64,000 nt of DNA, taken from a virus. The translations under genes were made by a program, and so were the position numbers. The stretch lies in IMG/VR virus record IMGVR_UViG_3300033153_009093, positions 1-64,000 of that record; one strand, given 5' to 3'. Of this stretch, positions 9,210 through 62,085 are shown piece by piece (positions within the stretch are counted from its first letter, which is position 1; each line of letters opens with the position of its first letter). The notes beneath the pieces are model-generated. The model saw nothing but the letters and a program-made list of their open reading frames with translations, made no database searches and was not told the origin of the DNA.

Positions 9210-9219
9210 AATATTTATT

Positions 9220-22946: not shown

Positions 22947-24758
22947 ATGAAAACCTCAAGATATGACAACGCCACGTATTCATTAATAAGAAAGTTATTA
23001 TTATTACAAAAAAATAAACCTAGAAATTTTACACCTATGGATGAAAGATTTCTAAAATTATTAATAAATGGAAAGATTGATTATGAATAGATAAAAAGAG
23101 AAAAAGAAAAATGTAAAACTGATATCAATTATTTTATTAATACTTTTATTTATGTAAAAAATAAATTTCAAAATATAGACGAAATTCCTGAAATTTTAAA
23201 AGATAAAGTAGAAGATGATAAAATTAAATTCGTAATGTATGACATTCAACGAAAACTTGTTGATGCAATTATGAATGATGACAAAGTCATTTCTACTAAA
23301 TCAAGACAGATAGGATTTACGACTACTAGTTTAGCATGCGCATTATAGCTTATTACTTTTAATAATAATAAAACGGTATTGTTGTTTTCTAAAAGTGAAA
23401 AAGACGCAAAAGATACTTTAGCGGAATTAAAATTTATGTATAATCAATTACCATTTTTTTTAAGGCGAGCCATTGATAAAAATAATGAAAAGGAATTGAT
23501 ATTAGGTAATAAATTAAATAGTTCAAAAATCATAGTACAAACTACCGGTAAATCAAGTGGTAGATCTCATGCTGCAACTTAGATTCTATTTGATGAAGCT
23601 GATTATATTCAAGGCATATCTGATATATATAGAGCCTCGGCCCCTGCCATTTCGGCAACTAAAGGAAAATTTATAGTTCTTTCTACGCCTAATTTATATG
23701 GATCGTAGTTTCATAAAATGGTTCAAGGTTCAAAAAATAAAAGGAATGGATTTACTTTAATTGAAGGGCATTAGCATACTATACCTTAGAGAACAAAAGA
23801 ATAGTACGCTGAACAATGTGCAATGTTAAATCATGATAAAAAATCAATAGCGACAGAGCTTGATATGAAATAGATATTGCCCTTTGATACTTATTTTGAT
23901 GATAAAAAATTATTAATAATCAAAGGTATTAAGCCAACAGAAATTATTTGCGGAATAGTTAATCAGTATCATAAACCAAAAAAAGATAATATATATATAA
24001 TTTCTGTTGATTGTCAAGAGGAAGGTTCGCATAATAATGCGATAATTGTATATGATATCAATGAAAAAATAATTGTTGCCGAAGTTGCAACTAAAATGAA
24101 TATATATGAAACGTTATTAGAATTATCAACGTTATATAATAATGCTAGAATAATTATTGAAAGAAATAGAGGATTTTATTTAATAAAAAAATTTGAAGAA
24201 AATGATTTAGAAGAATTACTATTACCTAATATTAAATATTTATCTAAAACAGATAAATTTGAATTCGATATAGACGATAGAGGAAGGCCTAATAAATTAG
24301 GATTCGTAACAACAAAGCATACAAGAAATAAATTATTAATACATCTATCATCTTATATATATAAAACAAGAACCTTGCCAATTCCTATACTAGAAGAAGC
24401 CAGAACTTTTATTATTAAAAGAGGAAGGCCAATAGGAATAGTTAGTGACGACTTATTGATCAGTACAGGAATAGTTATATTAACGGCTTATGTTATTAAT
24501 GATTCTAAAAATAATACTTCTTCAAATAAAAAATTAAAATACTTAATTGATAATTATTAGGGAAAGTCATTAAATTTAAAAAATAAAAGTGTAACTCATA
24601 AAGAAAAAATTAAAAAACAAATAAATAAATTAAAAAGATCTTTAATGAGTTCTTCTAGTACAAATTCATATAATACTTTTATTCAAATAGAAGAATTGAA
24701 AAAAATGAATCATACTAATAATTCTAAAATAGGAAAAATTCAATCAATGTTTTTCTGA
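22947..24758 (+). CDS. terL: Terminase large subunit (nine in-frame TAG)
   Basis: A 603-residue packaging ATPase-nuclease once TAG is read through. Walker A is STKSRQIGFTTTS (compare T4 gp17 SRQLGKTT), Walker B is ILFDEADYI, the coupling motif is VLSTPN, and the RuvC-like nuclease half begins IISVDCQEEG. TAGs lie at 23088, 23346, 23580, 23706, 23772, 23787, 23802, 23871 and 24558. Several sit where terminases usually have Trp or another aromatic: CAL-TAG-LITF, GS-TAG-FHKM, GH-TAG-HTIP and KE-TAG-YAEQ. There are no TGG codons and 14 CAA/CAG. Read with the standard code it would look like fragments of a pseudogene; the frame is intact throughout. Stop TGA, then a terminator. Confidence 0.9.
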
Positions 24759-25021: not shown

Positions 25022-26269
25022 TTATATTAACGTTTTAAAATAATTTACTCTTTTATTGAACAGAGTCTCGCCAAATATTTTTCCTGTTCCTTTATACCCT
25101 TCAGCTATAAGAGCTTTGCCGGTTACATCATTAATAGTTTGTAAATAATGTTTAAAATATACACACCTTTCTTTATGACCCTGCATAGCTTCTTCAATAT
25201 CTCCACCTTCCCTAAATGCTGAATCTATAAAAGATATCCTTGAAACATGTATAAAATCTTTATTTAAGTTATGTAGGAATCTAAAACATTTACCTATTCT
25301 CATTTCATACATTCGTTTAATTACCATATGAAATTGAGAACTTTTAATAGTTAGATTCTTTAATTTAGTAGGAATCTTTAACCGATTACAAAAGTTCTCA
25401 ATTTCAATAATTCCCAATTTATCATGACCGTGATGTTTAGGATGCATATTATTATCTGTAACACCCTTTCCGAAATCATGACATAATATCGATAGTTTAT
25501 CTTCAATAGTATTATTTCCATGATATAATAAATTTAGAGTATGATTTAAAGATGTTCCATCGTGCATATCCTTTACATTCAATGCAGCAACTTCCGGCAT
25601 AAATTTTTTTAATAAATTTATATCGTTTAAATGCCTAAAAAATTTATCAGGAGAATTAGATAACAATGCCTTTTCTGTTTCTTTCCATACCCTTTCATAA
25701 GATATTTCATTTAATTCATTATCATTAGTCATAGATAATAATAATTTAAATAAACTATCAGAAATATTAAAATTTAACTGCGAAGCAAACCTGCATGCTC
25801 TGAAAATTCTTAAATAATCATCTTTAAAATAATTGCTCACATTTCGTAATGTTTTATTTTTTATATCCGATATTCCATTATAAGGATCAATAATTTCTTC
25901 TGTTAATATATTGATAGCAATAGCATTGATTGTTAAATCTCTACGAAATAAATCTTCTTCTATTGTTACTTTATTTGTATAAAAATAAAACCCTGTATGA
26001 CCTGTTCCATGTTTAAATTCTTTTCTTGCCAATGCAACTTCACATGCTTCATTATTAATATTTATAATAAATACAGGAAAAGAAGTACCAACAACTTTTT
26101 CAAAGGGAATATTTTTGAAATCTACTCCGGTAATGACATAATCTCTATCATTAGATTTTCTATTCAGAAATTTATCTCTAACATATCCACCTGTTATATA
26201 TAAAGTACCTTCTAAATTCTTAATATAGTTAGCAAATTCAAGTTCAGAGTTAAATTTTATAGCCGTCAT
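25022..26269 (-). CDS. cca: CCA-adding tRNA nucleotidyltransferase with HD domain
   Basis: A 415-residue multifunctional CCA enzyme. Catalytic motifs: GGYVRDKFL (residues 27-35), DRDYVITG with the two metal-binding Asp, EVALARKEF, and RRDLTINAIAI. The neck/body region is followed by an HD phosphohydrolase motif LCHDFGKG and HHGHDKLG. Order and length match the gammaproteobacterial enzyme (about 410 residues). It would add or repair the 3' CCA of tRNAs, including phage tRNAs lacking an encoded CCA. It has its own sigma70 promoter, divergent from the gene at 26413. TAG-free. Confidence 0.93.
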   Translation of the reverse strand: MTAIKFNSELEFANYIKNLEGTLYITGGYVRDKFLNRKSNDRDYVITGVDFKNIPFEKVVGTSFPVFIININNEACEVALARKEFKHGTGHTGFYFYTNKVTIEEDLFRRDLTINAIAINILTEEIIDPYNGISDIKNKTLRNVSNYFKDDYLRIFRACRFASQLNFNISDSLFKLLLSMTNDNELNEISYERVWKETEKALLSNSPDKFFRHLNDINLLKKFMPEVAALNVKDMHDGTSLNHTLNLLYHGNNTIEDKLSILCHDFGKGVTDNNMHPKHHGHDKLGIIEIENFCNRLKIPTKLKNLTIKSSQFHMVIKRMYEMRIGKCFRFLHNLNKDFIHVSRISFIDSAFREGGDIEEAMQGHKERCVYFKHYLQTINDVTGKALIAEGYKGTGKIFGETLFNKRVNYFKTLI

Positions 26270-27800: not shown

Positions 27801-29249
27801 ATGAAACATAACATTTTTAATATTATTAAATATCCAGATAAAAAAGAATCTGCGAAAGCATTTGATAATAGCGCCTTATTAAATAATGTAAAAATGTAGG
27901 AAACTCATACTCATTTTTACATTAGCAATTTTCCCGGAACCTTCGGAAATGTGCAAAATAAAAATAATAGAATATATGATTAGAATACATTGACTTATGC
28001 AGCTAATTAGTTCAATGATATAAAAGAAAAAAATCCGTATTTTTGTTATATATTTGATGGTCATAAAGATGATGATAGCTATGAATTTATTGCAGGAAGA
28101 GTATTGCAATTAAAAATAGATCATAGAAATAAATGCATTTTAATGGATTTAAAATTAAATAAAGGGGCAAAATCGTAGCCAGCTATCAAAAATATTATAG
28201 AAGATGGTGACCCGGTAGGGGCTAGTATGAGAATTATAACGCCTAACGTTATAACTTCATCAAAAGAAGAATTAAAAAATATAAATAATAACATTACATT
28301 TTTAGAAGATGATAATAGAAACATTGCTAAATTAATGAGCAATGACAGTGAAATAGAATATATTACAGGGGAGGCGTTTATATAGAGATTCGATATTACT
28401 TGGTTTCCGTCTTTTAATTATTCTTTTGTAAATAAACCTTATAAATTTGACCCGATTTATAATAAAAATGAATCTTTAAATTTTAATAATATTAACGATA
28501 AATTCAAAGATATTAAAACTGCCGCAACTAACTTTTCATCAGATGTAATATGTAGTACAAATTCTTGTGAATTCAGAAAGCAAATAAAAAATTTTGTTGA
28601 TTTAATAAATATAGACAATTCTATAAATAATATTAATAATAAAAATTTATATGAAAGTATGTTAAATTTTTCATATATCAACCTTGATTAGTTTGATTTT
28701 AGTAATATAAAAGATGCGGAATATTTAAAAGATGCTTTAGAAGAAAATAATTATACTGATATTAATATTTATAAAGAAGTAATATCAAATATTATAGAAA
28801 ATAACATTATAAATTATATTATAGAAAAAAGTGTTTTTGATGTCGATATAATTAATAAACTACTAATTAATACAATAAACGAAATAGTTGATGAAGATAA
28901 TATATTTTATCAATTAATAACTTTAAATTATTTACATTTTACAATATTATCCACTATATTACTTTCAACAAAAAATAATGATAAAGTTGATAATATAAAT
29001 AATTTAGTTGATGTTATAGCAACTAATATAACAAAGAATGATACTATTGATAGTTTTGTTTTTAAATTATATAATGATTTAAAAAAAGAAATTAATTTAT
29101 ATGATTATATAAATTATATATTTATGTATCTATATAAATATATTAATAATTATGGTGATAAAATATCACCATTATTAATTATAAACGAAGCTGTAAAATT
29201 ATTTACAATTAATAAATCATTGACTATAACAAAATATATTAATAAATAA
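27801..29249 (+). CDS. Prohead maturation protease with long C-terminal extension (six TAG)
   Basis: A 482-residue protein reading through six TAGs. The first ~210 residues match T4 gp21-type prohead proteases: NRIYD start motif, catalytic His in FDGHKDD, a GRVLQLKID strand, and catalytic Ser in DGDPVGASMR. It sits directly upstream of scaffold and capsid genes, the canonical order. The C-terminal ~270 residues are helical and unknown, perhaps an internal scaffold segment. One TGG (DITWFPS); other possible Trp or Gln sites are TAG. The gene has a strong AAAAAGGAAAT ribosome site. Confidence 0.78.
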
Positions 29250-29298
29250 AAAATCTAATTAATATAACAAATACATGTTATTAAAAGGGTATAATTAT

Positions 29299-30975
29299 AT
29301 GAGTAAATTACTTACTGTATTAATTAAAAAATTAAATAGTGTTAAAGAATCTTCACAAGATGTCACTCTTGATTTTTCCGAAAATAAAGAGGCGGTGTAC
29401 GAGGATTTGTTAATACCTTTAATGAATTTAACTAAATCATCTGATTTAACGCAATTGCATGATAGTTTAAATGTTATCATTAATGATCCTCAAGATTCTG
29501 AAAAATTTACAGAAATCGGAGATTTATTGGTCAACTATCTTATGGAAGATAATAAAGACGATGATAATGGAGATTTATATGAAGAATTTGATAATCTCAT
29601 GTTAAATTGCATGGCAATATTTAATAGTTTAAAAAAAGCTATTGTCGAGAAAAATATTACAACTATGAATGAAGAATTAACAACTTATATCAATTCTAAA
29701 TTTAAAGTTGACCATGATGATGATGATACAATAAATGATCTTGAAAATGATGATAGTTCAATTGATTCAAAAGAAAATAAAAATAAATTGAAAACCAATG
29801 ACGATGTCGCTGAATCTATAAAAATTATTTCGCCAAAAGATGAAACTGATGATGAAGCTTAGGGGGAAATAAATAAAATAGAATTAAAAAATACTCTTAT
29901 GGATCAATTAGAAGGATCAAAAGGAGAAAAAGAAAAAAATACCATAAAAGAAGTAATAGATGAAACTTTTGCATTAGTGACATCTTATGAAAAAACTGGC
30001 GATTAGAAATAGCCTCATCATGTTATTAAAGATGAAAAATTAATTCTTAATGTCAACGGTTTAAAAACAGCGGCATTATTTTTATTAAAACATAACACTT
30101 CCAGAAATTTATCATCCGATGAACGAATTGAAATTGCAACCCATCTCAGTCGGCATTATGATGAATTGGAATTAGAAAAACCTGAACGATTAATTAAAAT
30201 AGCGGATGATTCTGAAAGTATTATAACTGTTAAAGTACAAGAAGATGAATTAAAAGAATATGCTGAAAATTTTAATACTAATGTCGAAAATGTTTCAATT
30301 TATATTGGATTATTCGAAGCATTAATTACTGATTTAGTAAATAGCGGAATTATAGATATTAAAGACAAGGCGGAAGATTTTGATGAATCTTTAATATCTG
30401 TTCAGCTTTCAAAAGAACAAGTTGAAGAATTTTTAAATTATTTTGACATTATGTCTGATGATATTTTAAATATTTTATCAAATAATTTAAGTTCTATGTC
30501 TTATAAAAAGACTGATATTGATTTAAAAAATAAATTGTTAAAATCGGAAAGTATTATAACTGAATTGCAACAAACAATTATTGAATTGACCGAACAGAAT
30601 AAAAAGAGTGAAACTGATTTAAATAAAGCGACAAATTCCAATTATGATAAAAATTTAGTTGATAATAAATTTGAAGTCATAATTAATTTTGTCAAGTCTT
30701 CAGATATTAAAGATGAAACATTAATCCAGTTTATAAATAATATTATTGAAGCCGAATCTAAAAAGGATATAGGATATCTCACTAAACTTGGTAAATCATT
30801 TATGAAATCAAAGATATCTGATAGTACTCAGTTTATAAAAAAGTCTAAAGTAATAAATAGATTTTCTAATAATGAATTAGACGAATTATTAGATTTTGTA
30901 GGAGATGGAAAAACTGAATCTGCTGATTCTATTATTGACAATGATAGAATCAATAGATTGGCAGAATATTTATAA
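29299..30975 (+). CDS. Prohead scaffold-like protein (three TAG)
   Basis: A 558-residue acidic, helical, coiled-coil-rich protein between the protease and capsid genes; composition and position identify it as the internal scaffold or core protein. Start chosen at 29299, preceded by AAAAGGG. TAGs at 29860 and in TGD-TAG-K-TAG-PHH near 30003 are in frame with continuous coding on both sides. No TGG. Scaffolds normally have little Trp, so this gene says little about the meaning of TAG. Confidence 0.72.
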
Positions 30976-31027: not shown

Positions 31028-32155
31028 ATGTCTAAATTAATCGATATTTCTAAAATTCCACTTGATAAAAAAGAAAGTTTGGAAATTGCAGGATTTACTT
31101 CTAAGGCAAGAGAAAGGTACAAATTGGCACCGGCTAAATCAGATAATTTAAGTATTATGCTAGGGAATATATATAAATATTTTAAAGTATTTAATGAATC
31201 TAATGCGGCAACAGTATCATCTGACATTGAACCATTTAGAGATTTAGCCATCCTAGCGACTACTAAATTTTATACACAAAACATATTAGATCAAATTTGT
31301 TCAGTGCAAACAAGTGATTCTCCTTATGGATTGATTACATATGTTGATTTTCAATATGCAGATGACCATGCACCTGATACAATTGTTGCAGGTGATAGCA
31401 TAGCCAGAAGAAGTAGAACTTATGGCGATCATCCGGGCGAACAAACATTATCCAGAAGAATTAAAACGAAGATTGAACAAAAACCTATTACTGCCGGTGT
31501 TCGGTCTATTGAAGCATCTTATTCTCTTGAATCATTTTTAGCATTAAGCTCTGTCCAAGGGCAAGCAGGAGCAAAGCAGTTTCTTGATAGAACTTACTTA
31601 GATGTAATTGCTAATAAGTTAAGAGATGAAGCAGAATTTGCCGTTGTTGATGCTATGTATTCAAGCGTTTTACCTGCTCATACATTTACATTTGCGCACG
31701 ATACGACCGTTTGCGAAGAAGAAGAATGTCAAGCAAGACGATTCTTGGATAAAATTGAAGAGTCTGCTCAAAGTGTGTATGATAATAGAAAAGTATGGCC
31801 TAATGTTGTAATTGTCGGCTCTGATGCTCTTAAATTAATCAGAAGAGGAGATACTAAGATAATTAATAATTATAAAGCAGGCACTGGAGTACCTTCTTCT
31901 GTCGCCCGAAATTATTTAGGCGTTTTAGATGATAGATATGGACTATTATATGATCCAGAATTAACAGGGGCTATTTTAACTTAGAAAGATAATAGTACAG
32001 ATTATGGAGGGTCAGTAGTTTACACTTCCGTTGTTCCAGTTGCTATTACCCCGGCTATTACTGAAAGAGATTTGGCGACTTATAGAGTAATTTATACAGT
32101 TGATTCAGTAGATGTAATTCATCCTGAAATTATGGCGAGAATTGATATTGTTTAA
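31028..32155 (+). CDS. Major capsid protein, gp23-like HK97 fold (one TAG)
   Basis: A 375-residue protein. The central segment TKIEQKPITAGVRSIEASYS followed by a long helix (DVIANKLRDEAEFAVVDAMYS) matches the conserved region of T4 gp23 where matrix helices precede AEIN-type sequence. The ending with a P-x-I-P-like VVPVAI segment also fits. The single TAG (ILT-TAG-KDN) aligns with the aromatic position of T4 gp23 VGYKG, which favours an aromatic residue. One TGG (KVWPN). It lies after protease and scaffold, followed by a bidirectional terminator. Confidence 0.82.
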
Positions 32156-36342: not shown

Positions 36343-37470
36343 TCAGATAGATCCTCCTGTTTTTGATAAAAATAATACAACGACCGGATTTTCAATATCT
36401 GAACCATCTGCGTATACTTCTATATTATCACCTTCGGAAAAATCTACATTTAATGTAGTATCCCTGTATGTAGTATCATTAATAATATTAATATCTACTA
36501 TATTAGTAAATGATCCATTTTTTCTAATATAAATATTTGAATTAACTATATTCTTTGATGTCATTATAGAAATGCTTACTAAAGTATAATCTGCATCTAA
36601 TAAAATTGATGATTTATTAGAATAAATTTCATTAACTTTTAAATATACTTTATCCGCTTTATCTTTTCTACTATAAATAAAATTTTGTCTCGAAGCTAAC
36701 CATTTTTCTCTAACAGTATCTTTTCCATATACAATACCATCTACTATTGATATATCTTCTAATTCAGTGGCATTAGTTTCTAAATCTAAAATTCTATCAT
36801 TTATATTAACATCACTTAGTTTTAACTATGAAGTTGTATCATATACATAATGAGATTTGAAATTATTACCGTCATCTTCAACAATAACGGCATTATTTTT
36901 TACAGGTACATGTACATTATCAAAATATAAACCATTCTAAATATATACTTTTTGGTCTGTCTACTACGTAGGTATTATTCTATCATTTATTTCTACATCA
37001 GCTAAAAATGCCTAATTAGTGCCATCATATTTATAATACTTTTCATCGGTTGTATTAGCAAATATGTCATTTATGTTTACAGAAGTAGGTTCAGTTGAAT
37101 CAATGTCAATTACTATATATTTTACTGGTTCAATCTAAGGATTTTCTTTTACATTATCATAATGTATTGTAGAATCTCCTGCATTTTGTAATTCAGATTT
37201 AGTATAATGTTGATCTTTTACATTATAAACATTTTCTCTTGATAAATAATCTAATGCATTAGATATATTTAAATCAACTGAACCATTATTAAGTACTAAC
37301 GATGTACCATCTGATATTAATGTTTTTAAATCATCACTATTACATAATTCCGCAAAAGTATATTGATTACTTAATACTATTGTAGCATCCGCTTCAATAT
37401 AATACCCCATATCGTTTATTAAATACGGAGAACTTAATAAATTTTTTATAATTGTCGTCTATTCGCTCAT
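36343..37470 (-). CDS. Fibre/baseplate-type protein with repeated Y-D-x-T-x-TAG motif (seven TAG)
   Basis: A 375-residue protein beginning MSE-TAG-TTI. It contains two related units: YKYDGTN-TAG-AFLADVEINDRI and YVYDTTS-TAG-LKLSDVNINDRI. Y-x-Y-D-G-T-x-W is a very common phage fibre motif, so TAG occupies a Trp position twice; VYI-TAG-NG also fits the usual YxWNG pattern. Other TAGs: ENP-TAG-IEP and IPT-TAG-TAG-TDQ. One TGG (REKWLAS). The N-terminal part (ISDGTSLVLNNGSVDL) resembles short phage tail domains. It ends in TGA three bases before the next gene. Confidence 0.65.
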
Positions 37471-41271: not shown

Positions 41272-43416
41272 TTATTCTTTTATATTTTCAACAATTTTAC
41301 TAGAATTAATTGCCACATATCGAATCATAAATTGACAGTTCATTGTGATAGTGGTTGCAAGAATTATATTAAAAAGGCGGGAACGCCTAAATCCCAAATA
41401 TCCATAAACACTATTAGCTATAATCTTATCAACCAATTGAGCAATATTTAAATTTAAAATCTCTGGATCATCCGAAAGTAACCCTTGTTCTTTTACTTTC
41501 TTCTTCATTTCTTTTTTAATTGACTGCCTATCAGAAATAGGAAATCTAATTAACTTACGGAAAAATGATTCTTTAATATGAGCAGGCAAAAACACCGCAC
41601 CCGTTTCTGTCAATACTAATTCCTTTTCATACATCTTTTTAAATATCTCGATTATTTCAAAATGTTTAAATTTTTTAAATATATCATTTACAACATCATA
41701 AATTTCTACAACTAGGTTTTCGTTATCAGTTATGAAAGAAATAAAATTATCTCTTTCATATAAATACAATAGAGCTATATTTTCAGGAACTTGATACACC
41801 CAACTATCGCAACCATTATTCGTTGAATAAATACTAGAGGGGTACATACTACTTGCATCAAAGTCTATCACATTTAAATGAATACCTTTTGATGGTGTCT
41901 TGACATATGCTCCCGGATACTTATCATAATTCCAAATGAACGGAAACTGCCCCTTTGTTAATTTGATATTTTTTAAATCTACCGTTTCTAAATCCTTTTC
42001 AGTTAAATCATTGTATATATTATATTTTACTTCATTCAACTCTTCTTCATTTGTAAATAATGAAAAGGTTTTATTATCTTCTCTTAATCTTTGAATAAGT
42101 TCTAATCTACTATCATTTAAAAAATTCAAACGTCTATATATATTCCATATTTTTTGAGTATAAAAACTTTGAACTTTTATTGCGGATGTGACCATTAATT
42201 TATTTTTCTTTGCTTCTGTAGATATATATGCATCAAGGATATTATTAATTGAAAGCGTTGCCGCAGTAAACCCCCTTGTCATCATTTTTTGTTTAAATAA
42301 AATCTTAACAAATAATAATTTATCATCTATCAATTTATTTAAAATAACATCGCCTACATTATATGTAATAAAATTTATAGGATCTGTTAAATATTCCACA
42401 TTTAAATTAGAAATTTCTATTTTTGCTGTAATATTATCTTCTTCTTTTTTTAAAATCTTTTTGGCAATTTTATTTAACGCATAAGATGGGTAATTGGTTC
42501 GGTCATAAAATTTTATTAATTGAATATAATCCAGACTTAATATTTTAGTAGTATAATATGTATAAGAATTCATACCAGTTTTACTATCTACAATATTTAA
42601 TGTCTGATAAATTTCTCCAAATGAATCATTAAAAGCTCCTAATATTTTGATATGTTTACATCTATTATAAGTATACAATGTATCAAAATTTAAACTATTC
42701 CAACCCATCATTACGTCAAAATTTTTTATATATTTTAAAAATTCTATTATTAATTTTTTCTCATTATCAAATTTAAATATTTTATATTTATAACCTTCAC
42801 CGAATTTTTCTTTTAATTTTTTATATAAACCTTCATCAAAATTTTTAATTTTATCATGATGTAAATTATTATATAAAAAATAAACATTTATGTTGTTTTT
42901 TTGTAAATCAATATGAGCAATAGAATTTATTTCATATTTTGCCTGCTCCGCTTCCGGGAATTCTTTATCATCATGTAAAACTTCAATATCAAATATTCCA
43001 ATTTTAATATTATTTAAATAATCATTATCATATTGGAATATTTCTTGTTGTAAAAATTGAGTTTCGATTTTATAATCATCATATATATCAAATTGAAAAG
43101 ATAATATAGATGGAAATTTATTTAATAATTTTAAATTCTTCTTTCCTTCATATGCACTCGTTAATCCTTTCTTTAACGAATTATAATTCCTATATGTTAA
43201 CGTTAAATCCTTTACCTTTTCTTCTAACGGTAATGTATATCTTATTCGCTTTGTAAATTTAGATAGTTTTACTGTATATTTAGGATCATGTTTATGCCCT
43301 GTTATTTTTTTTGAATTACCATTACTATCTATTTCTTTAATTATATAATGTAAATTATTATCTTTATAAGAATAGTAGGCATCTATTGGGTAATATTTCT
43401 TTGTTTCTGTTGTCAT
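41272..43416 (-). CDS. Family B DNA polymerase, N-terminal part (split before motif C)
   Basis: A 714-residue protein with 3'-5' exonuclease motifs (IGIFDIEVLHDD, MMGWNSLNFD, YNVGDV). It has polymerase motif A (VIDFDASSMYPSSIY) and motif B (KIIANSVYGYLGF). It ends about 30 residues after motif B (ATTITMNCQFMIRYVAINSS then TAA). The catalytic motif C (x-DTDS) and thumb are absent and no downstream gene in the window supplies them. In T4-like phages the equivalent helix directly precedes motif C. A homing endonuclease starts three bases downstream, suggesting the gene was split. Four TGG, no TAG. Confidence 0.88.
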   Translation of the reverse strand: MTTETKKYYPIDAYYSYKDNNLHYIIKEIDSNGNSKKITGHKHDPKYTVKLSKFTKRIRYTLPLEEKVKDLTLTYRNYNSLKKGLTSAYEGKKNLKLLNKFPSILSFQFDIYDDYKIETQFLQQEIFQYDNDYLNNIKIGIFDIEVLHDDKEFPEAEQAKYEINSIAHIDLQKNNINVYFLYNNLHHDKIKNFDEGLYKKLKEKFGEGYKYKIFKFDNEKKLIIEFLKYIKNFDVMMGWNSLNFDTLYTYNRCKHIKILGAFNDSFGEIYQTLNIVDSKTGMNSYTYYTTKILSLDYIQLIKFYDRTNYPSYALNKIAKKILKKEEDNITAKIEISNLNVEYLTDPINFITYNVGDVILNKLIDDKLLFVKILFKQKMMTRGFTAATLSINNILDAYISTEAKKNKLMVTSAIKVQSFYTQKIWNIYRRLNFLNDSRLELIQRLREDNKTFSLFTNEEELNEVKYNIYNDLTEKDLETVDLKNIKLTKGQFPFIWNYDKYPGAYVKTPSKGIHLNVIDFDASSMYPSSIYSTNNGCDSWVYQVPENIALLYLYERDNFISFITDNENLVVEIYDVVNDIFKKFKHFEIIEIFKKMYEKELVLTETGAVFLPAHIKESFFRKLIRFPISDRQSIKKEMKKKVKEQGLLSDDPEILNLNIAQLVDKIIANSVYGYLGFRRSRLFNIILATTITMNCQFMIRYVAINSSKIVENIKE

Positions 43417-47180: not shown

Positions 47181-47218
47181 ATTAGAAAGGGATTATTATA
47201 TAATAATCCCTTTCTAAT
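47181..47218. terminator. 38-nt perfect palindrome, bidirectional terminator
   Basis: Nineteen-base arms without loop (ATTAGAAAGGGATTATTAT and complement) between the convergent helicase and the 816-residue tail-type gene. Confidence 0.85.
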
Positions 47219-49668
47219 TATACTAAATTATGTAAATAATTTAACTTAGTAGTTTTATTTTTCATAATAAATCTTTTTATTTTATAATATTCATTTATCA
47301 TATTAATATCAAAATTTAAAATATTTGTAGAAAATGAAAATTTTGTCTCATATTCATCTTTATATAAAATAATATCTTTAGGATAATTATTTAAATAATC
47401 TGTTTTTTGTGTTAATATAACAATAACTTCTTTTTCTTTCGTCATGTTATTTTCTAATACCTTTATAGAATTAAACCATTCTATATTAATATAATCATAA
47501 GATATAACAGGTTCATATTTATCATCTAATAATTTCTAATTATTTTCCGCGATAATATTATCAGAATCAACCGAAGATATTGTAATAAACTTATCATCAA
47601 TCTTTATAGTTTCTCCGATATTGCTATAATAATTTACTGAATCATTATAATTTAAATAATAATTATTACTATTTAAATCAATCATAGATTTATTATTTTT
47701 ATTATATATACATGAATCTTCATTAAGCTCTATAAATAAAAATGTTTTATCATCTGATAAATGAATATTTTTATAAGGAACTTGAACATCTTCTATTAAG
47801 TTTTCATTATATTTACTCCGAAGAGAATCAACTATAATTTTATAATTATAAATTATTTTATAATTATCCTCTGCAATTTTATCAACTCCTATTCTTGTTA
47901 AATGTACTGAATTATTTTTGGTTGATTTTATGGGATAATATTTCAATCCTGAAATCGAAGTAACGTAATTCAAATTTCCTTGATAAAATATTTTATCATT
48001 TTTTAAATCAATAAATAATGTAAATATTTTATCATTTTTTAATAATTCTATATACTATAATTTATCGCCATAATATACAGCATCATTAACGGTTGTATCT
48101 GTAATATTTATAGGTATATTGATTTCGTTTAATATAGAATAATTTGTACCATCATTGCAGTATAGTTCAACAAAAAGAGTAGTATTATATAATGAATCTG
48201 TTGCATCAGTATTAATAAATTGAACCAAACTATATAAATTATCATTTATTTTATTATACTATCCATGTTCTGAAAATACATGGTCATATACAACTATATC
48301 AGTATATCCAATATCATTATAATTTATTTCCTTTGCTATTGAAATTTCTTTATCTTTAAATAGTTTATTATGATCTAATAAATCATAATATTTTTTATAT
48401 ACTTGTTTTACGTTCAATATATCAAAAGTATCATTATCAACATTTAAATATTTATCAAACATTATACAATTCTAATCACTATTATCTTGTATAATCTCTG
48501 CTATTTTCATATTTATCAAAGGGATATCAGTATCATTATCAAAATATTCCATTTCGATTTCGGTTCCAATAGTACAGTTATTATTATGATACTATAATTC
48601 ATAATATACTTTTGATATATCAAAAGATGCTAATAAATATAAATTAAGATTAACCTATTCAATATTTCCTATAATTACATTTTTAAATAATGTTGTAGTA
48701 TCATAATATATATTACATCTTAAATTTGCTGTAGTGTCTGAAGTAGTAAACAATAAATCTTTTAATACTTTATAATTCTATAATGTATGTTTATTTTTAT
48801 ATGATAATGTAAAATTCTAATTATTTAATTCTATATTATCATATTCATCGAATAATCCTATATTGGCAGTATTATCAATGTCATTTTCGTTAACAGTTAA
48901 TTCTATATTATTATCATTTTCGTTATATACTATCGGATATAACGTATTATTTGATATAGGAACATTGTCAGGCACTTTAAAAATTAAAGAATTTATTTCA
49001 TATTGATCATCAATTATTTCATTATAATTTGCTTTGTAATTAAAATCATTTTCTTGACCATTGTAAATAATAGAAAACTTTTTACCATGCGTAAATAAAT
49101 TTTTATACTTGTTTATATTTTCTACAACAGGAGGCGTACCGCCATCATTAAATGTTAAATAAAATATATTACTTGTGAACTAATTAGATCCATAATATTG
49201 TCTAATTGTTATAAAATATTCTCCCGGTGAAGAAAAATATTGAACGTTATAATTGTTATATGTATTAGTTCCGTATATTGTATCTGATGCGATATATGAA
49301 CCCGGTTGCCCTCCTGATGAATAATGCTAATAAAATTTCAAATTATAATTCGATGAACTTTGTGAAGGTTTAGTTATACTAACATATCCAGGACTGGATA
49401 TTTCGAATTTATACGTTCTATATGTATATGATGTAGAAGGATTATACGGAGGCGTACAAGCTATGGATGGGTCATTTAGATCAATAGTGTATGGTTGATT
49501 GTTAAATATTTGAGAGTAGCAAGGAATAGAATTGTCTAATTGTTTAATAACTTTTATATCGTTTGACATATTATCCAAATATTGTTTAGTTGGACAATTA
49601 ATTTTAAAATAATTTTTATATTCTGAAGTAGTATCACTAATATTTTTTATATAAAATAGACTATTCAT
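47218..49668 (-). CDS. Large recoded tail-type protein (ten TAG)
   Basis: An 816-residue protein joined across ten in-frame TAGs, all in one frame from ATG 49666-49668 to TAA 47218-47220. Contexts include YGSN-TAG-FTSN, SEHG-TAG-YNK and GDKL-TAG-YIEL. One TGG (NIEWFNS). The N-terminal third has repeated beta segments (ISSPGYVSIT, SSPGEYFITI). Asn/Asp/Tyr/Ser/Thr-rich composition fits a fibre or baseplate protein. Its start overlaps the upstream gene's stop by one base. Confidence 0.62.
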
Positions 49669-50939
49669 TAATCATTCCTTATTTCTATTGATTTCGTTAC
49701 CTATTTATATTGTAATGGATAAATAGAATTTACGAATTTTAAATTGACATTACAATATTTATTTATTGCATACTTTTCATTGTCTGTAAAAAATATATCT
49801 TTAGTATCAAATAATAAAAGATGTGACTGAATATTTAATATTTTTATATTTATTTTATTTATTAAAGCAGAGGTGTCATATAAGTTTCCTAAATACTAAT
49901 AACTATCAACTGGAATATTATTATTAATAAATAATAATTCTAATTGTGATAAATATAATTTTTCAACATTGCCATATAAACCAACATTCAAATTTACATA
50001 GGGATTAATATCATTTTCTTCTATTTGAGAATTTAAAAAGCTTACATGAATTTTACAAGTTTGATCTTTTGTTAAATAAAAATACTCTTCTGTAGAAAAC
50101 ATATCTCCATTATCTGAACCTATATCGTAACTAGGCAAATCTTTATCTGGATATACAACAACTCTGGAAGAATTTCCCGCCTATGCATTTTCTTCGGTCA
50201 ATTCATCATTTTCATAATCTATATATTCTCCTAATTTTAACTTATACTATCCAGTGAAATTAGGAGTAAATTCTAAAGCTCTATATTTATATGATGATCC
50301 AAAAACTGGGCATACACTCCCAGCTTTATTAAAAGAAAAATCTAATATTAAAACATTTTCTCCTACTAAAGGTTTTTCTAATTGCGGCAACTGTAAAGTT
50401 TGTTCAATAAAAGAACTCTAGGTCTATTCAAATATATTAGATAATTTATTTATATCATTATCAAAAACTATATCAGGTTTTAAATATGATAATGTTATTA
50501 AATTCATAGCATTTTCGGCTATTAAAACGGAATCTACAAATTTTTTATTGATATTTAAAAAATTTTCCGTTAATAATTTATCTTTCTAAGTTGAATTATT
50601 AACCATATTTTTAATATAAGAAAGATCAATTATTCTATTTTCTCTTATAAATGTCGTATTATAATTATTTTTAATATCTAATTCAACTATAATATCATTT
50701 AAATTGTCAAAATTTCCAATAATACTATTATTTATTTTAACATTTGTAGAATCAGAATATAAATAATTAGGATAACAATTGTTAAATAAATAAGATGTAT
50801 CGGAATAGGATATATCTTTTTTATTTTTTATTTTATCAATAAAAATTAAATTAGTGGTAAATTTATCACTAATTTTTAAAGATTCGTATTCTTTTATTCT
50901 ATATTTTTTTATTGAATAATCTAATGTTATATCTTCCAT
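49668..50939 (-). CDS. Large recoded tail-type protein (seven TAG)
   Basis: A 423-residue protein from ATG 50937-50939 to TAA 49668-49670 with about seven TAGs (for example IFE-TAG-T-TAG-SSF, FTG-TAG-YKLKLGEY, QYK-TAG-VTK) and no TGG that I found. Beta-rich, acidic. It diverges from the giant plus-strand tail genes starting at 51012. Likely virion structural. Confidence 0.6.
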
Positions 50940-51011
50940 AGTTTACCGTAATACTAGATTTCTAAATTAATTTATTAAATTAATTTAAAAATATAAATTA
51001 GGTTGCTATAA

Positions 51012-54000
51012 ATGATACCACATTTATCAAAACTAACCAATATAAATGATCTTAATAATTTTGAACAATTATTTTCTTTCAAAAAATCAACGCAATTATT
51101 TATTATACCAAAAGTATATGATGAAAATAATCCTTATAAAAATGAATATAATGACGAATATTAGTTACTAATTTAGTGCGAATTGATAACTAGTGATACT
51201 GATTATTATAATTTTTTAAATAACTTTTTAACTGACACTGCAATATCTAATAAAGATTCTAACAATTTAGCATTATTTTCTATAGAAAATGATACTCTTA
51301 ATTTTGTAGATATGCATGTTTTAGAAACTGACAATAGAGCTAACTTTTCTATAAATTTAAAAACTGCACAAGATTTAATTATTGATGATATTAATGTTAT
51401 TGGTATATATTATACTCAACCAACATTTGTAACAATAAACGATGATATTATAAATAAAAATTATGGTGATATATTTACAGTATCAGTAAAACAATTAAGT
51501 TACGATGATTATAATAATAAATATACTAATCATTATATGTTTCCAGATTCTTAGGATGATTCTGAAGCGTCTAATCCTACAAATTTTGTATTGCCCCGTG
51601 ATATCAGTGATGATTATTATAAAGGTTCATATAATACAAGAACCACTTTACCAGATGAAAAATCCTAGTTAAGTTATAGCTCTGATAATTTTAATACTAA
51701 AGATAGAATAAAACAATATAGAACAGAGTACTTTGACCATGTAATACCTGATATAAATAATGATCAAAATATTGCAATAGCCTATAAAACAATTCCTATA
51801 GCACCTTATATGAATATAGATATTTATATAAACGGTATTTTGAATGAGTATAAATTAAATAATATAACATCTATTCAGTAGATAGATAATAAAATTTTTC
51901 AAATCGTTAAAGATGGTATACTATATAAATGTAATATGCATTGGGAATCTGGTACATTTTACAATTTAATCGAATTAGAAAACTTAAATATTTATTTAAA
52001 TGGCTTATTAAAATATCACAATAATATAATAAAATACGGCAGTAATATAATAAGCGAAAAATAGTCTTTTGGATATGGCAATAGTACTTATGATGATTGT
52101 AACATTTATATAAATGATCAAGAATTTTCTGAAAGTAATTCGGTATAGGGTACTGGATCTTATTATATAACACATAGTAATATTTATAAATTTGGAATGG
52201 ATATGATACAGCCTGTATTATACGAATTTAAAAATTTTATTATATTTCCTCGAAAACGATCAATATTACCTATAAATATAAAAGATTCTTATTAGAAAAA
52301 AACAGTATATAATGAAAATGATTCAGTTTATGTTGCTAATAGAGAAGAGGATTCTATTATTAAAATAAACAATTTTAATAATATTAAACTATTAGAAAAT
52401 GATGCCAAACTAATATCTGAATCAGGAACTAATGCTTTTTATAAAATGAAATCCAATTTAGCATTTGAACAATTATCCGATGATATTTCTTTAATAACAA
52501 TATATAATAATATCGGAGATGTAAACGGTGCGTTTAAAAATGCAAATGAAGATTCAACTAACAATATATTTTTAAAAATTGATGATTATGATTATGATTT
52601 AACAACAGAAAATATAACCTTAGAGTTAAATATAGATTATTCTGAAATAAAACAATTTTTACAAAATGATAAATTTATTAAATTATTAAATAATAATAAT
52701 AGTTATTATTTAAAATAGAATAATTATCTTTTTAATTCGATAACGGAATTAAAAAATAATTTTATGGATATTCTAAATAATAATTTTAATTTGGATGAGA
52801 TAAATTTGTCAACATAGACAACAGAAAATAGTAATTATATAGATAATATCATAGGTATTCAAGATACTATAGATTCTGATATATTTGCTATTAGCAATAA
52901 TACTGAACAACTTAAATTAGGTTATAATTTTATAGAGTTAAATTCATCTTTAAATTCTATAACGAATTTAACTAATCATAAATCAGAATTTAAAATTGAT
53001 CAATTTATAACTTCAGATGGTACAATATATCAAGAAAATGAGATAAATTATAAACTATATAATATTAATACGGATATATCATTTAAATTAATAATTACTG
53101 CTGAAAAAGAATTAGCGGAAAATTATATCAATGATAAGATTATTAATATTGAATATACTATTGAAGATATTAATCAATGTGAGACATCATATATAGTAAA
53201 TAAAAATTTAGAAGATTTATCAAATATTACACATGATACGACTACTATAAATTTTATAAATGATAATACATCTATTACATTATCAAATATTGATAGCACT
53301 TCAATAACATTTGAAGAAAATATAAATTTAAATGAAGAAATCATTCTTAATAAAGATGAAACTTTAAATATCGATATAACTCTTTCTAATTTTAATTTAG
53401 ATAAAGATATTAATCATTATGATATATTTTCAAGTTATAAATATAATGATTTTATTGATATTCATATTAAAGATGATTATTATAATCATAATATTTACCA
53501 TTTGGATTTAATAGGAAAAACTTTTAACACTTATAAAGTTAATTTATCTAATGAATATAAATTTTATACATTTGGAAATTTACCAAAAAAATGCAAAACA
53601 TAGTTATCAACTTAGTATGATTATGATGAAAATAATACTATAAATGAATTTTATGGTAATTATAATAATGCAATTCTATATAATTTAATGGAACAAAATT
53701 CAGCGAAGTATTTTATAGAAAGATATATAGCAAATGAAGCGTTCACTGAACCCGATAGTAATAATACTCCTTGTGATGCATATTATATAAAACAAAATGA
53801 TACCGATTTAGGCACCCTTCCTACATCGCAATCAATTGATGTATAGCCGGTAGATAAAGAGGCTCATACATTGTTTATTAATGCCGCTGTAAATGATTTA
53901 ATAGATGGTGGTAATACTATGTATACAGATTATGAATAGCGATACTATTTAGCTAAATATGGCGTTAATTATGGTGCTATATTAAATGGAGTATCGTCCA

Positions 54001-54773
54001 CTGAATAGATTGTAGGTAATACTATAAAGCCTATAACATAGTAGGTTGATAACGATGCTCAGTTATTTGATAAAGATAACTGCAATGGTTATAATGTTTA
54101 TAATTATTATGATAATACGACCTCTAACAATTTATGTTTCACTTTTAATAAATATTCCGACTCTACTAATCAAATAGAATCATCTTACATTGATTCCACT
54201 AGTATAGATACAATAGAATATGAAAATAGAATAAATGAATACTTCAGTAATGGTTATCCTATTAATAAAAATTTTGATTACGGCAGTCCATTATTAAATG
54301 ATTATAAAAATAAAACTGGAGTAATATATTTTTGCGATTTTTCTTCTCGTTCAATACATCAATCATATGGTGGTACTTTATAGAATCATATTATTGATTT
54401 TGATTACGAACTTCATTCAAATGAAATAGAATTTTTGTCAAATAATTTAACAGATATATTAACTAAAATATATAATGAAAAAAGAAAAATGGGACAAATT
54501 GTAATAGATAATGATTTCAAATATAAATATATTGAATGCGGGTCGTATATTTATGATATCCCTCGATCCTCTATGAATATTAAATTAGAAAGAAAACATT
54601 CAACTATAACAGTGTATATAAATGATATTATTGTAGATGAAATACTTACTAATGATGATAAATCATACATTTCTAATATTATAAATTAGGGCAATATATA
54701 GGCCGGAAATAAGACTATTAATATGTATAAAACTATAAACATAGTAACAAAAAAATCAGGATTATGGTGTTAA
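51012..54773 (+). CDS. Giant recoded tail-type protein (about 20 TAG)
   Basis: A 1253-residue protein in one frame from ATG 51012 to TAA 54771-54773. Only two TGG (MHWESG, SGLWC). TAG contexts include DEY-TAG-LLI-TAG-CELIT, CKT-TAG-LST-TAG-YDY and ITNP-free stretches of DST-rich sequence. No catalytic motif; alternating beta-strand character and size fit a fibre or baseplate protein. First of five consecutive plus-strand recoded genes. Confidence 0.65.
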
Positions 54774-54774
54774 T

Positions 54775-55896
54775 ATGATAAAAAGGTCATTTTATGATTT
54801 TAAAAATCAATTTACAAATGAATCTATAGATAATGTAAAAGTGCCTTATAATGTTCTTTTAAAAAGTTTTAATACAGATGTAACCACATATGATGATATA
54901 TTAAATTATTTTGATATAGATATTTCTTCTGATGGTACTAATATATCTTGTGACATTACACAAAAGGAAGATACTAGTTATATATACCCTGAACCAATTA
55001 TTTATGATTTTTCAATACCTAATGAAATTGATTATATATATGATTAGTATCCGGCTTCAGATGATCCTCAATCTCATTAGATAGGGGTAAAATTACCTTC
55101 AGATAATACCTCTGTGTTAATAAATAAACCTTTTAAAGATACTACAATTACATTATCAGAGACAAGAAAGATGCACCCTACGCCATCTATCGAAATGTAG
55201 TATTCTTCATATAATGACCATTTAATATTACCTAAAGAAGAATTGGTATAGGATGAAAATTTTACAGAATTCGCAACTGATATTTATAAATTCGCAAATG
55301 ATACAACAAAAACTGAATATGCTCATAAATATGAATTATATTTATTTAATCCATCTACATTACTTTCATTAAATAAAAATTTTAAGTTTGGGTTTCATTT
55401 TGATTCTAGTTTATTAGGTGTAAAAAATACTAATGATTTTCAATGGAATCCTAATAAAAAATACTAGCCAAATAATACTAATGTCACAAATGATATAATT
55501 GGCAGTTATTATGATTATGATTCTAATTATAAACTAAATGGATAGTTATTAATAAATAGTGATATTACATCTTATATTGGTTCTTATAACTTAAACATAG
55601 ATACTACTGTAATTATAGATAGTGAAAATTATAAAATAAATAGAGCACATGTACCACCTATGAGATATTTAAGTATTGGGGATTTTGATACTGATGAACC
55701 TGAAAACTATTATCAACCAATTATTGCTTTTAATGATAAAAATAATTATAGACATGTTAAAATTGAACACGAAAATCATAGTCAATTTACCGAAACGACT
55801 GGTATAAATGCTATTTTAAATTCATTAAAGAATGAAACTCATAGTGAATTTTTAGTTGAATTTGATGGATATAATGAAGTAATAGAATTAAATTAA
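54775..55896 (+). CDS. Recoded tail-type protein (six TAG)
   Basis: A 373-residue protein starting one base after the previous stop. It contains IYD-TAG-YPASDD and QSH-TAG-IGVKL, a pairing that recurs as TS-TAG-YPENHSD-TAG-VGSDG in the gene at 62108. One TGG (FQWNPNKKY, itself followed by TAG). Beta-rich virion protein by context. Confidence 0.6.
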
Positions 55897-55924
55897 TTTT
55901 TAAATAAAGAAGGGTTATATATTC

Positions 55925-58711
55925 ATGTCAAATATAAACTATGATAAAGATATTTTAATTTATCCTATAACAAATAATTTATCAGATATAACTAATACTG
56001 ATATTACAACATCACATGCTATAAACGTTAATATTCTTAGTTTAGTTAATAGTACTGGAATAGCTATTTATAAAGATAATACTTAGGTATTTAAAGATTT
56101 CAATAATGAAATTGAAAACAAATAGATATTTAATGATAGCACAAATACTGACATGACAGTATATTCCTATAATATTTATAATATATTTATTGATGATACA
56201 GAAAATATTAAAGCATATTTATATAACAATAAACGAAAAAAGATCAGTGATATATTTGAAAAAAATATTAATATAGATTATAAAATAACAATAGATATTA
56301 CTGGAATAGATTTATCTGATCCGAAAAATTATGAATTGGATAGTACAATTGTATTGGATACAACTTCATAGATAGATAATACAGTAATAATAAAGCATGT
56401 ATCAGGTATGTATAATAGAAAATATCAAATGGATTCATATACTAATATATATGAGTTTACAACTTCTGATTCGACCAATTTAGTTTATAATTTGTATCAA
56501 GATTCAGATAATAGATTATTTGATTACAATAACAATCTTACTTTATATGTAACAGATTCGACAGGTAATCAAGTTTCAAATAAACTAGAAAAAAATTATT
56601 TAATAAAACATATAAACTGCGAAACTCCTTTAATGTCACCTATTGTGTCGGAATATATTAATTATAATACTTAGAATGCGAGTCCAACTAATTCGAATAC
56701 ATATGAAGGTGATTGGCATAGTTGTTGTGTATATACAAAATATATGAACTTAACAATTCAACCTTATGGTACTTTTCAAAAAAATCTTAAATATTTCGAT
56801 ATTTATAATAATTATAACTCAACCGGAGCAATAAATTTAACATATAATGTCCCTTTATTAATAACTTCATATTTATCGCAAGGTGATAATTGGGATGAAA
56901 ATGTAAGCGGTGAATTAGATACAACCGATACAATTATAGAACATGATATTCATCCTTCTAATATTTATAATAATCATAATCTCATAAACTATAGCGAAAA
57001 TTCTATATTTTTATAGTTTAAATAGAATGATAATATTACGTCATATAATTATGATGATAATATGCATTCTTTAAGAATTAGAAATAATAGAGAAGGAAAT
57101 TTAGATTTGGTATATTTTCCTAATGACTATAATAATACTCCTACTTATTTTGATGATCATACTGACACTGGCGCATATGGTGAGGAAAATATATCTGGGC
57201 CAGAGTAGTATACTACGTCCAATTTTATAGAATAGAGGAAATATAATTTACAGTATAATAACTGGGATAACATAAATGAAGAAGTTATAATTGATTCATC
57301 TTATGAATAGAAATATTCTGAGCAACAATATTATTAGTAGGAAAGTAGAATACCAATAATGTTACGAATTGAAACTAATCACAAGGTAAGATTTAAATTA
57401 GAAATGAATGGAGCGGAAGATTTTGATGATAGAATTAATAATTTAATAGATATTGTAATAAATCCTAATGAACCTTTCGAATTAAGACAATCAGAAGATT
57501 TTTATATTAATCCATATACTTATTATTTTGTAACTTTTTAGTTTGAATTATTAGATACCACTACTATAAGTTTAGAAACCGCTCAAGATATAGAATTTAA
57601 TGTGTAGTTAACTCCTATTAGAGATGATAGATTATATATAATAAAAGATGATATATCTTTTCAACACGGAGATGAAATAGAATAGTTTTCGTTACAAGGT
57701 GAAGTTCACCATGATCCAGAATATATATATAATATATCTAATATAAATAAAATGACAATGGATGATACTATAAAATGTAATGATCCTTATATAAAATTTG
57801 ATAAAGGTACTAATGATTTAAGTATTTTGATGACAGAATTTTCTTCAAATGATACAACTTCTAATGTATCATTAAATTTTAGAACTTATAACATTGATGC
57901 TACATCTATTCCTGATTTTACTAATGTAAACGATTTAAATATTGGTGATATTGTACATGTATATGGATATAATTTAAACGAAACTTATATAGTTGAAAGT
58001 TATATTGTCCCTGATAATACTAATATAACTCAAAGTGAAGTTTATAAAATTTCTTTTAAAACTGCAACAGGTGTATGTTCTACTCCGGTAGTTGTTAGAG
58101 ATGATGAATATGGAGAATAGACTATAACTTGCATTGGGGATTGTAGGCCGTCATATACGTATGTAACGAGCAATTATGCTGATGGTAATACAATGCACCA
58201 TATTACATACCAAGACGGTTTAAATGTCGCTCAAGGCGAACCAGTCGAAGTATTGACAGTTCATCCTAATACTAATAGAGGATGTAATGTATATATGGAT
58301 AACACAGAAGCAATAGTGTGCATGGCACCATATGCAATAAGATATGACACAGAACAAACCGGTGTATTTTTTGCATTTTCTTGTATAGGTGATGATTTAT
58401 CATATGCTTCATCTGAAGTTATAGAAAGTGAAAATTACCCTGATCAAAGTATGTGCCCTGTAGGTAATTTGTATTATTATTATGCAGGTAGAACATCGTA
58501 GAAATGGTATGAGCATAATTATGCGAGAGGAATAGGATCTTATAACGCAACAAGATATTATCGAAAAAATGAAGGCTCTTAGATAAATTCAGGGACAAGC
58601 TCTTATTCATATTTATCGGTAAGTTTAAATGATACAATTGAAGTTATGCAACAAGATACATATTCAAATTATGACCATTCATGGTCAATTAAAAAGAAAC
58701 GATAGGCGTAA
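55925..58711 (+). CDS. Giant recoded tail-type protein (about 18 TAG)
   Basis: A 928-residue protein, ATG 55925 to TAA 58709-58711. Five TGG, the most of the block. The last ~250 residues are unlike the rest: compact, with Gly and Cys (ITCIGDCRPSY, MCPVGNLYYYY), perhaps a receptor-binding tip. TAG contexts include TSR-free YFVTF-TAG-FELL, FNV-TAG-LTPIR and RTS-TAG-KWYEH. Confidence 0.62.
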
Positions 58712-58713
58712 TA

Positions 58714-61700: not shown

Positions 61701-62085
61701 ATTAGCGTTATTTGAATATGGTCATAATTTTGAGATGGAAAATGGTTATTGTCATACATTACCTACAATAAAAACTGATGGTAAAAAAGATTTATTTCAA
61801 TTAAAATATGAAGAAGAATTTAATGATTATTAGGCATTTTATTAGTAGTACCCTTTAATAAAGCATGATATTGTTTCAAGGCAAAATGATTATAGTAATT
61901 CATATATGTACAATTTAATAGAATAGTATAATTATGAAATTGGAAATTCTTCTATAGGTTCCTATGATGATACATATAATGAATTTGTGATAACAGCATA
62001 GTCTACTTAGGGTTATATAGATTAGTTTTTTTCTAAAATAAACGTTGTTTATGATAACGATAAACGAATTATTACAGATTTTTAA
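58714..62085 (+). CDS. Giant recoded tail-type protein (about 22 TAG)
   Basis: An 1123-residue protein, ATG 58714 to TAA 62083-62085, two TGG (one directly after a TAG, FE-TAG-WND). TAG is dense near the C-terminus (ITA-TAG-ST-TAG-GYID-TAG-FFSK; AFY-TAG-TAG-YPL). Composition is Asp/Asn/Tyr/Thr/Ser-rich with no recognised domain. Likely fibre or baseplate component. Confidence 0.62.

Follow-up and report, generated by a model that had tools for sequence, protein, structure and literature searches.

Does the stop codon TAG specify tryptophan in some phages? The question is raised by a fibre-like gene of phage A (virus record IMGVR_UViG_3300033153_009093, 180,374 bp), in which TAG occurs repeatedly within the reading frame (Table 1). 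The gene lies in the 64,000-nucleotide stretch analysed here ("the window", record bases 1-64000). The initial annotation had singled out three of its TAG codons, in the contexts YKYDGTN-TAG-AFL, YVYDTTS-TAG-LKL and VYI-TAG-NG, and proposed that TAG is read as Trp rather than Gln. All three motifs are found exactly as given, on the minus strand, the plus strand of the interval being non-coding. The proposal departs from the phage recoding described so far, namely TAG to Gln and TGA to Trp (PMC11210395, PMC9523058, PMC10607447, PMC12386605, PMC13037316).

TAG and TGG exchange positions in two related phages

Phage A has a G+C content of 24%. Its T4-type (gp17-like) terminase, gp23-type capsid protein and family B polymerase, all three of them present, class it from sequence as a T4-like myovirus. 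Once TAG is counted as sense, 229 genes are called, spanning 94% of its length. A relative, phage B (IMGVR_UViG_3300039008_000120, 232,818 bp), was reached via the phage A capsid protein. The two capsid proteins are 67% identical and the terminases 52-53%, that of phage B also containing in-frame TAG. Phage B has 284 TAG across 92 TAG-bearing genes; none of its genes ends in TAG and 48 end in TGA. A scan of viral contigs with the capsid proteins of both phages recovered phage B as the sole relative; scans with the terminase or the synthetase (see below) as single sequences yielded no relative, a degenerate tRNA pattern matched no viral contig, and a phage collection contained no match for either the synthetase or the capsid protein.

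Phage B contains an orthologue of the fibre-like gene (30.6% identity). Since this orthologue exists and itself contains in-frame TAG, three in all, the frame is not a product of chance. In both repeat motifs the TAG of phage A faces a TGG-encoded Trp of phage B (DGTN-TAG-AFLADVEI versus DGK-W-VSIGDVKI; TTS-TAG-LKLSD versus TTS-W-GKIGD), and the sole TGG of the phage A gene (REK-W-LASR) faces TAG in phage B (REK-TAG-LGNR). The third site faces VYEYDG, with no Trp, and is uninformative on the residue.

Exchanges between TAG and TGG run in both directions elsewhere as well. The capsid proteins of phages A and B differ by KV-TGG-PN/KV-TAG-PN and by LT-TAG-KD/MT-TGG-KD. Upstream of the capsid gene, a gene of the structural cluster that lacks a database match reads EAFI-TAG-RFDIT-TGG-FPSF in phage A and EAFI-TGG-RFDLT-TAG-FPSF in phage B. 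Within phage A, a pair of paralogues aligns one TAG with a TGG-encoded Trp.

To extend these comparisons, 74 reciprocal best pairs were aligned with TAG masked. TAG faces TAG in 41 columns. In the other 145 its partners include Trp (32), Tyr (28), Phe (19), Ile (13) and Gln (1). Scoring these columns with substitution frequencies drawn from the same orthologues, a procedure that called 56 of 56 control sense codons correctly, gave +142.1 bits for Trp, +74.3 for Tyr, +26.0 for Phe and -123.4 for Gln; Trp leads Tyr by 68 bits and Gln by 265. Alignment of TAG columns to Gln, the outcome that the initial annotation had named as speaking against its reading, is confined to the single column out of 145.

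Phage A is a metagenomic record with no cultured isolate, and its TAG codons could in principle be assembly errors or marks of gene decay. Yet 295 TAGs stand in place of TGG at Trp-type columns, and 41 sites are common to both phages, so that we attach practically no weight to such an origin.

Table 1. Positions of the features discussed. Coordinates are those of the window unless marked otherwise.
Feature	Position	Strand	TAG and TGG codons	Remarks
Hen1-Pnkp fusion	7080..9209	-		Hen1 N-terminal, methyltransferase, kinase and phosphatase domains
PNKP-type RNA ligase	9414..10574	-		adjoins Hen1-Pnkp fusion
Terminase large subunit (T4 gp17-like)	22947..24758	+	9 in-frame TAG, 0 TGG	homologue columns
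CCA-adding-type nucleotidyltransferase (PolyA_pol head)	25022..26269	-		kept in phage B
Structural-cluster gene upstream of capsid gene	27801..29249	+	6 TAG, 1 TGG	orthologue in phage B
Structural-cluster gene	29275..30975	+	3 TAG	orthologue in phage B
Major capsid protein (gp23-like)	31028..32155	+	1 TAG, 1 TGG	both exchanged with phage B
Fibre-like gene	36343..37470	-	7 in-frame TAG, 1 TGG	375 codons, ATG...TGA; ORF reading and phage B orthologue
TAG in YVYDTTS-TAG-LKL (repeat motif 2)	36826..36828	-		faces TGG-encoded Trp in phage B
TAG in VYI-TAG-NG (third site)	36937..36939	-		no Trp opposite in phage B
TAG in YKYDGTN-TAG-AFL (repeat motif 1)	37012..37014	-		faces TGG-encoded Trp in phage B
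Family B DNA polymerase	41272..43416	-	0 TAG, 4 TGG	non-late example
TAG-rich block, large tail or fibre-like genes	47218..62085		80 TAG, 11 TGG	
TAG-rich block, minus-strand members	47218-49668, 49668-50939	-		
TAG-rich block, plus-strand members	51012-54773, 54775-55896, 55925-58711, 58714-62085	+		
tRNA(CUA), phage A	record 108714-108787 (outside window)	-		only tRNA gene in phage A; Rfam 59.4 bits
TrpRS-like synthetase, phage A	record 134073-135023 (outside window)	-		
tRNA(CUA), phage B	phage B record 94764-94839			58.5 bits
Release factor 2, phage B	phage B record, L278:16507-17649			SPF motif; 1.1 kb upstream of tRNA(CUA)

Protein profiles and homologues favour tryptophan at TAG

The initial annotation had proposed a Codetta-style inference from profile alignments as a check. 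We translated the TAG codons of phage A genes as various residues and compared the resulting HMM scores. The terminase scored 124.0 bits with Trp, 111 with Phe, 108.9 with Tyr, 106 with His, 102.6 with Leu, 100 with the unknown residue X and 98.4 with Gln. The corresponding values for a DUF5662 protein (150 aa, 5 TAG) were 114.1 (Trp), 101.6 (Phe), 98.9 (Tyr), 93.1 (X) and 91.6 (Gln), and those for a phosphoesterase 125.2 (Trp), 117.8 (Tyr), 116.7 (Phe) and 116.4 (Gln). Trp leads the runner-up by 13, 12.5 and 7.4 bits, respectively, and Gln by 25.6, 22.5 and 8.8 bits. A fourth gene, encoding an HNH endonuclease (record A 116207), did not discriminate between residues.

For the terminase, 89 homologues were aligned to a query whose TAGs were masked. 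Trp occupies two of the TAG columns in 89/89 homologues, another in 80/89 and a fourth in 62/89. Summed over eight TAG columns, the scores are +14.7 bits for Trp, -6.0 for Phe, -15.7 for Tyr and -17.3 for Gln. Applied to 30 sense codons as a control, this approach identified 25 correctly and missed the others by at most 3.6 bits. Profile-based codon inference can produce false stop-to-Trp calls, as noted for yeasts (PMC8629427), a weakness that is answered here by the orthologue columns and the TAG/TGG swaps.

TAG replaces TGG in one class of genes

Among the phage A genes of at least 100 aa, 62 contain a total of 295 in-frame TAG and the other 101 contain none. TAG-bearing genes include those for terminase, capsid, the capsid cluster and large tail or fibre-like proteins, with as many as 20 TAG in a single late gene (51012-54773); those free of TAG include the genes for polymerase, helicases, ligases and ribonucleotide reductase. 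TGG accounts for 0.17% of codons in the TAG-bearing genes versus 0.84% in the others, a fivefold drop (Fisher p = 3e-29), whereas Gln codons (2.08 vs 2.22%) and Tyr codons (6.96 vs 6.63%) are nearly level. These statistics, in which no homology was used, indicate that TAG stands in for TGG in the TAG-bearing genes of phage A. Profiles, orthologue columns and codon statistics all favour Trp over Gln.

As to termination, 188 of the 229 genes stop at TAA, 41 at TGA and none at TAG. Absence of TAG stops is also what a host that itself reads UAG as Trp might impose on its phage. Against a code inherited from the host stands the fact that the phages bring their own CUA tRNA, synthetase and, in phage B, RF2; moreover, TAG is kept from replication genes, as expected if the host stops at UAG. 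We regard a host code as quite improbable.

A few genes may be mentioned in passing. Three radical-SAM family proteins are encoded in the non-TAG region (788-1633, 12189-13034 and 14226-15188). A TnpB/Cas12f1-like protein (record A 122520-123851) has five in-frame TAG and its phage B orthologue four; this gene, of a mobile-element type, takes part in the recoding. A repeat-bearing HNH/DUF723-type endonuclease family (window 39814-41268; record A 114105-114284 and 116207-117103) comprises three copies, of which two contain TAG and one does not.

Both phages encode a tRNA(CUA) with an unusual acceptor end

The initial annotation had also suggested that a tRNA with a CUA anticodon be sought and examined for Trp identity elements. 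Such a tRNA is present in both phages (Table 1); phage B has in addition one tRNA-Leu and one tRNA-Gln(UUG). The two tRNA(CUA) are widely different in sequence, yet both have C1-G72, U2-A71, C3-G70 and U73, encode their CCA end and contain the loop CUCUAAA. Compared with the identity determinants in Table 1 of PMC9976931, the phage A tRNA has none of the Gln elements G73, U1-A72, G2-C71, G3-C70, G10, G36 and U38. Of the bacterial Trp set it keeps only G4-C69, G5-C68, C34 and A36, and lacks G73, A1-U72, G2-C71, G3-C70 and A9. The tRNA is thus without Gln identity, and the usual Trp identity is missing too. From these comparisons poor charging would be expected from both the host GlnRS and the host TrpRS, and with most bacterial Trp determinants missing, any TrpRS that charges this tRNA must do so in an idiosyncratic way.

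For phages that recode TAG, the usual assumption is glutamine, its meaning in phage code 15 (PMC11210395, PMC9523058), and the presence of a CUA tRNA would suit it. The evidence points the other way: Gln appears in 1 of 145 orthologue columns, it scores no better than X in the terminase and DUF5662 proteins and fares no better in the phosphoesterase, its codons hold steady in TAG-bearing genes while TGG falls fivefold, and the tRNA has none of its determinants. A glutamine reading can hardly be sustained.

ARAGORN labels the tRNA as tRNA-Pyl. Pyrrolysine decoding was rejected, as the phage A proteins give no match to PF01409 (PylRS) and the tRNA has a canonical cloverleaf. Nor was any synthetase of the Gln/Glu or Phe/Pyl type found in phage A.

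A divergent TrpRS-like enzyme accompanies the tRNA

Each phage encodes one synthetase of the Trp/Tyr family. The two are orthologues (41.5% identity) free of TAG, and the family signatures HIGH and KMSKS and a match to PF00579 are present. TrpRS models outscore TyrRS models in both (75 vs 43 bits in phage A, 85 vs 36 in phage B), although the comparison set was gathered with TrpRS-type patterns and may somewhat favour the TrpRS model. Among NCBIfam models, the phage A enzyme scores highest with tyrS (40.3 bits, cut-off 113.8), ahead of TrpRS models (32 bits), with no trpS match; the phage B enzyme scores 79.6 with trpS (cut-off 176.75) vs 45.5 with tyrS. As no curated cut-off is reached, we file both as TrpRS-like and divergent, not as curated equivalogs. 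In a tree that includes both phages, the two synthetases fall inside the TrpRS clade with support 100/100; with phage A alone, its enzyme lies outside the TrpRS and TyrRS clades on a very long branch. By these sequence criteria the enzyme is clearly a TrpRS only once phage B is included, which is not obvious from phage A alone.

A further feature is a set of four cysteines. Phage B has exactly the C-x22-C-x6-C-x2-C arrangement of Thermotoga maritima TrpRS, whose anticodon-binding domain carries it as the motif of a [4Fe-4S] cluster (PMC2954223); phage A has C-x22-C-x4-C-x2-C. A relaxed form of the motif occurs in 23 of 72 TrpRS and 0 of 12 TyrRS; among the 229 proteins of phage A the synthetase is the only one to show it. 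In a model of the T. maritima enzyme, the cluster region contacts C34 (PMC2954223), hence a change there would fit another anticodon. The same enzyme (2g36) is the best PDB sequence match of the phage A synthetase. AlphaFold reached a pLDDT of 35 from the single sequence and 85 with an all-TrpRS alignment, the best match again being 2g36; such an alignment biases the result, and no weight is placed on it here.

Might TAG instead encode tyrosine, or another aromatic residue, and the synthetase be TyrRS-like? TrpRS and TyrRS form one superfamily, tyrS is the top NCBIfam model of the phage A enzyme, Tyr occupies 28 of the 145 orthologue columns, and the C1-G72 pair resembles tRNA-Tyr of Archaea and Eukarya, where it is a Tyr determinant (PMC9976931). 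However, Trp is ahead of Tyr by 68 bits in the orthologues and by 15.1, 15.2 and 7.4 bits in the terminase, DUF5662 and phosphoesterase profiles; Tyr codons remain steady in TAG-bearing genes; Trp, though rare, is the most frequent sense partner of TAG; none of the 12 TyrRS has the four-cysteine motif; and position 73 of the tRNA is U, not A. Such a reading seems to us very improbable indeed.

TrpRS-like genes occur in many large phage records (L234-L257, up to 619 kb), several of them near tRNA-Trp(CCA). Of 24 TrpRS-bearing viral records examined, eight gave a terminase match, and in no case did the terminase contain a stop, indicating that TrpRS carriage alone is no sign of TAG recoding. One 154 kb record, IMGVR_UViG_3300037524_002067 (L241), combines a TrpRS, two tRNA-Trp(CCA) and a tRNA(CUA) (L241:3116-3188) unlike those of phages A and B; its terminase, the stretch covered, gave no indication of TAG recoding.

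Termination and RNA repair functions

The release factor of phage B scores 370.9 bits with prfB vs 220.8 with prfA and is classed as RF2-type. RF2 terminates at UAA and UGA, not at UAG. A search of record A, which may be incomplete, found no release factor, so that host RF1 may still stop at some TAGs. This gives some ground to the alternative that UAG is only partly read as Trp, with substantial RF1 termination and a mixture of truncated and full-length late proteins, all the more as a phage A tmRNA (below) could rescue stalled ribosomes. With up to 20 TAGs in the gene at 51012-54773, however, negligible full-length product would be made unless decoding were efficient, and we consider partial decoding unlikely, while granting it more room than any of the other alternatives.

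The tmRNA of phage A (record 171981-172339, minus strand; L008:6981-7339; Rfam 100.7 bits) encodes the tag ADDYAIAMAA followed by a UGA stop; ARAGORN found no tmRNA in phage B. The window also contains a phage RNA repair set, the Hen1-Pnkp fusion and ligase (7080-10574). A role in tRNA repair may be proposed for the Hen1-Pnkp fusion, and one in tRNA maintenance for the CCA-adding-type enzyme. As a guess, these three proteins could guard a tRNA needed by all late genes.

Discussion

The explanation we favour, with high confidence, is that TAG means Trp in phages A and B, where a phage tRNA(CUA) would be charged by the phage's divergent TrpRS as part of a late-gene switch. Computation from sequence finds TAG read as Trp, a tRNA(CUA), a TrpRS homologue, RF2 and the split between gene classes; from these we infer the charging, the orthogonality and the early/late timing. 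The Trp reading is most strongly supported by evidence that was not available to the initial annotation: the TrpRS of the phages, the existence of phage B, the exchanges between TAG and TGG, and RF2.

In the mechanism we envisage, replication and metabolism genes, using TGG only, would be translatable by host machinery from the start, and these TAG-free genes would supply the synthetase. This divergent enzyme of the Thermotoga type (four-cysteine, [4Fe-4S]) would load Trp onto tRNA(CUA). Because the acceptor end of the tRNA is unlike that of bacterial tRNA-Trp or tRNA-Gln, the host TrpRS and GlnRS are proposed to ignore it and the phage enzyme to recognise it; enzyme and tRNA would form a natural orthogonal pair with a rebuilt acceptor end (C1-G72, U73). 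As Trp-tRNA(CUA) accumulated, UAG would be read as Trp and the structural genes completed at full length, phage B RF2 helping to counter host RF1. The same reasoning has been put forward for other phages that recode stops (PMC9523058, PMC10746230).

The system resembles that of code 15 phages (crAss-like, Lak, phAss and others) in that TAG is recoded mainly in structural genes, the tRNA(CUA) is phage-encoded and replication genes keep the standard code; jumbo code 15 phages can also carry RF2 (PMC13037316). It differs in that TAG means Trp, the tRNA is without Gln identity and a dedicated TrpRS is present, a dedicated synthetase being absent from phAss-1 (PMC10607447). The code 4 switch of phages, in the summary given by PMC10746230, reads TGA as Trp by means of a phage TrpRS, a tRNA(UCA) and RF1. 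Phages A and B share with it the combination of synthetase and suppressor tRNA, the insertion of Trp at a recoded stop and, in phage B, a release factor blind to that stop, here RF2; unlike code 4 phages, they recode TAG with the anticodon CUA, and TGA stays a stop. The synthetases resemble T. maritima TrpRS (PMC2954223) in HIGH, KMSKS and the four-cysteine motif, and differ from it by their low identity (about 25-30%) and by the proposed tRNA partner, with CUA anticodon, U73 and C1-G72. A tRNA-Trp type anticodon loop with CUA is also found in Su7, an E. coli amber suppressor that goes back to tRNA-Trp and, in that bacterium, receives mostly Gln. In the phage tRNA, by contrast, the acceptor stem is rebuilt and a dedicated TrpRS is available, so that charging with Gln would be prevented.

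Phage code switching as such is already known. The initial annotation knew of no established TAG-to-Trp phage code, and our literature search, which covered few subscription papers or preprints and leaves priority uncertain, agrees with it in having turned up no UAG-to-Trp case. As a codon assignment, UAG = Trp appears to be new, and the UAG-to-Trp version of the switch seems to be a natural genetic code not seen before. With somewhat less assurance than for the reading itself, we think it likely that a T4-like phage lineage uses this code, with an orthogonal TrpRS/tRNA(CUA) pair, an RF2 supplied by one member and a late-gene switch.

Annotation pipelines hard-code TAG as Gln and TGA as Trp for phages. 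If TAG can also be Trp, one stop codon has differing meanings among phage lineages, and phages with in-frame TAG therefore need testing, code 15 not being assumed. The TrpRS/tRNA(CUA) pair, probably orthogonal by nature, would be of use in genetic code expansion, and the A/B system may allow a clear-cut test of whether phages time late gene expression by a switch of code.
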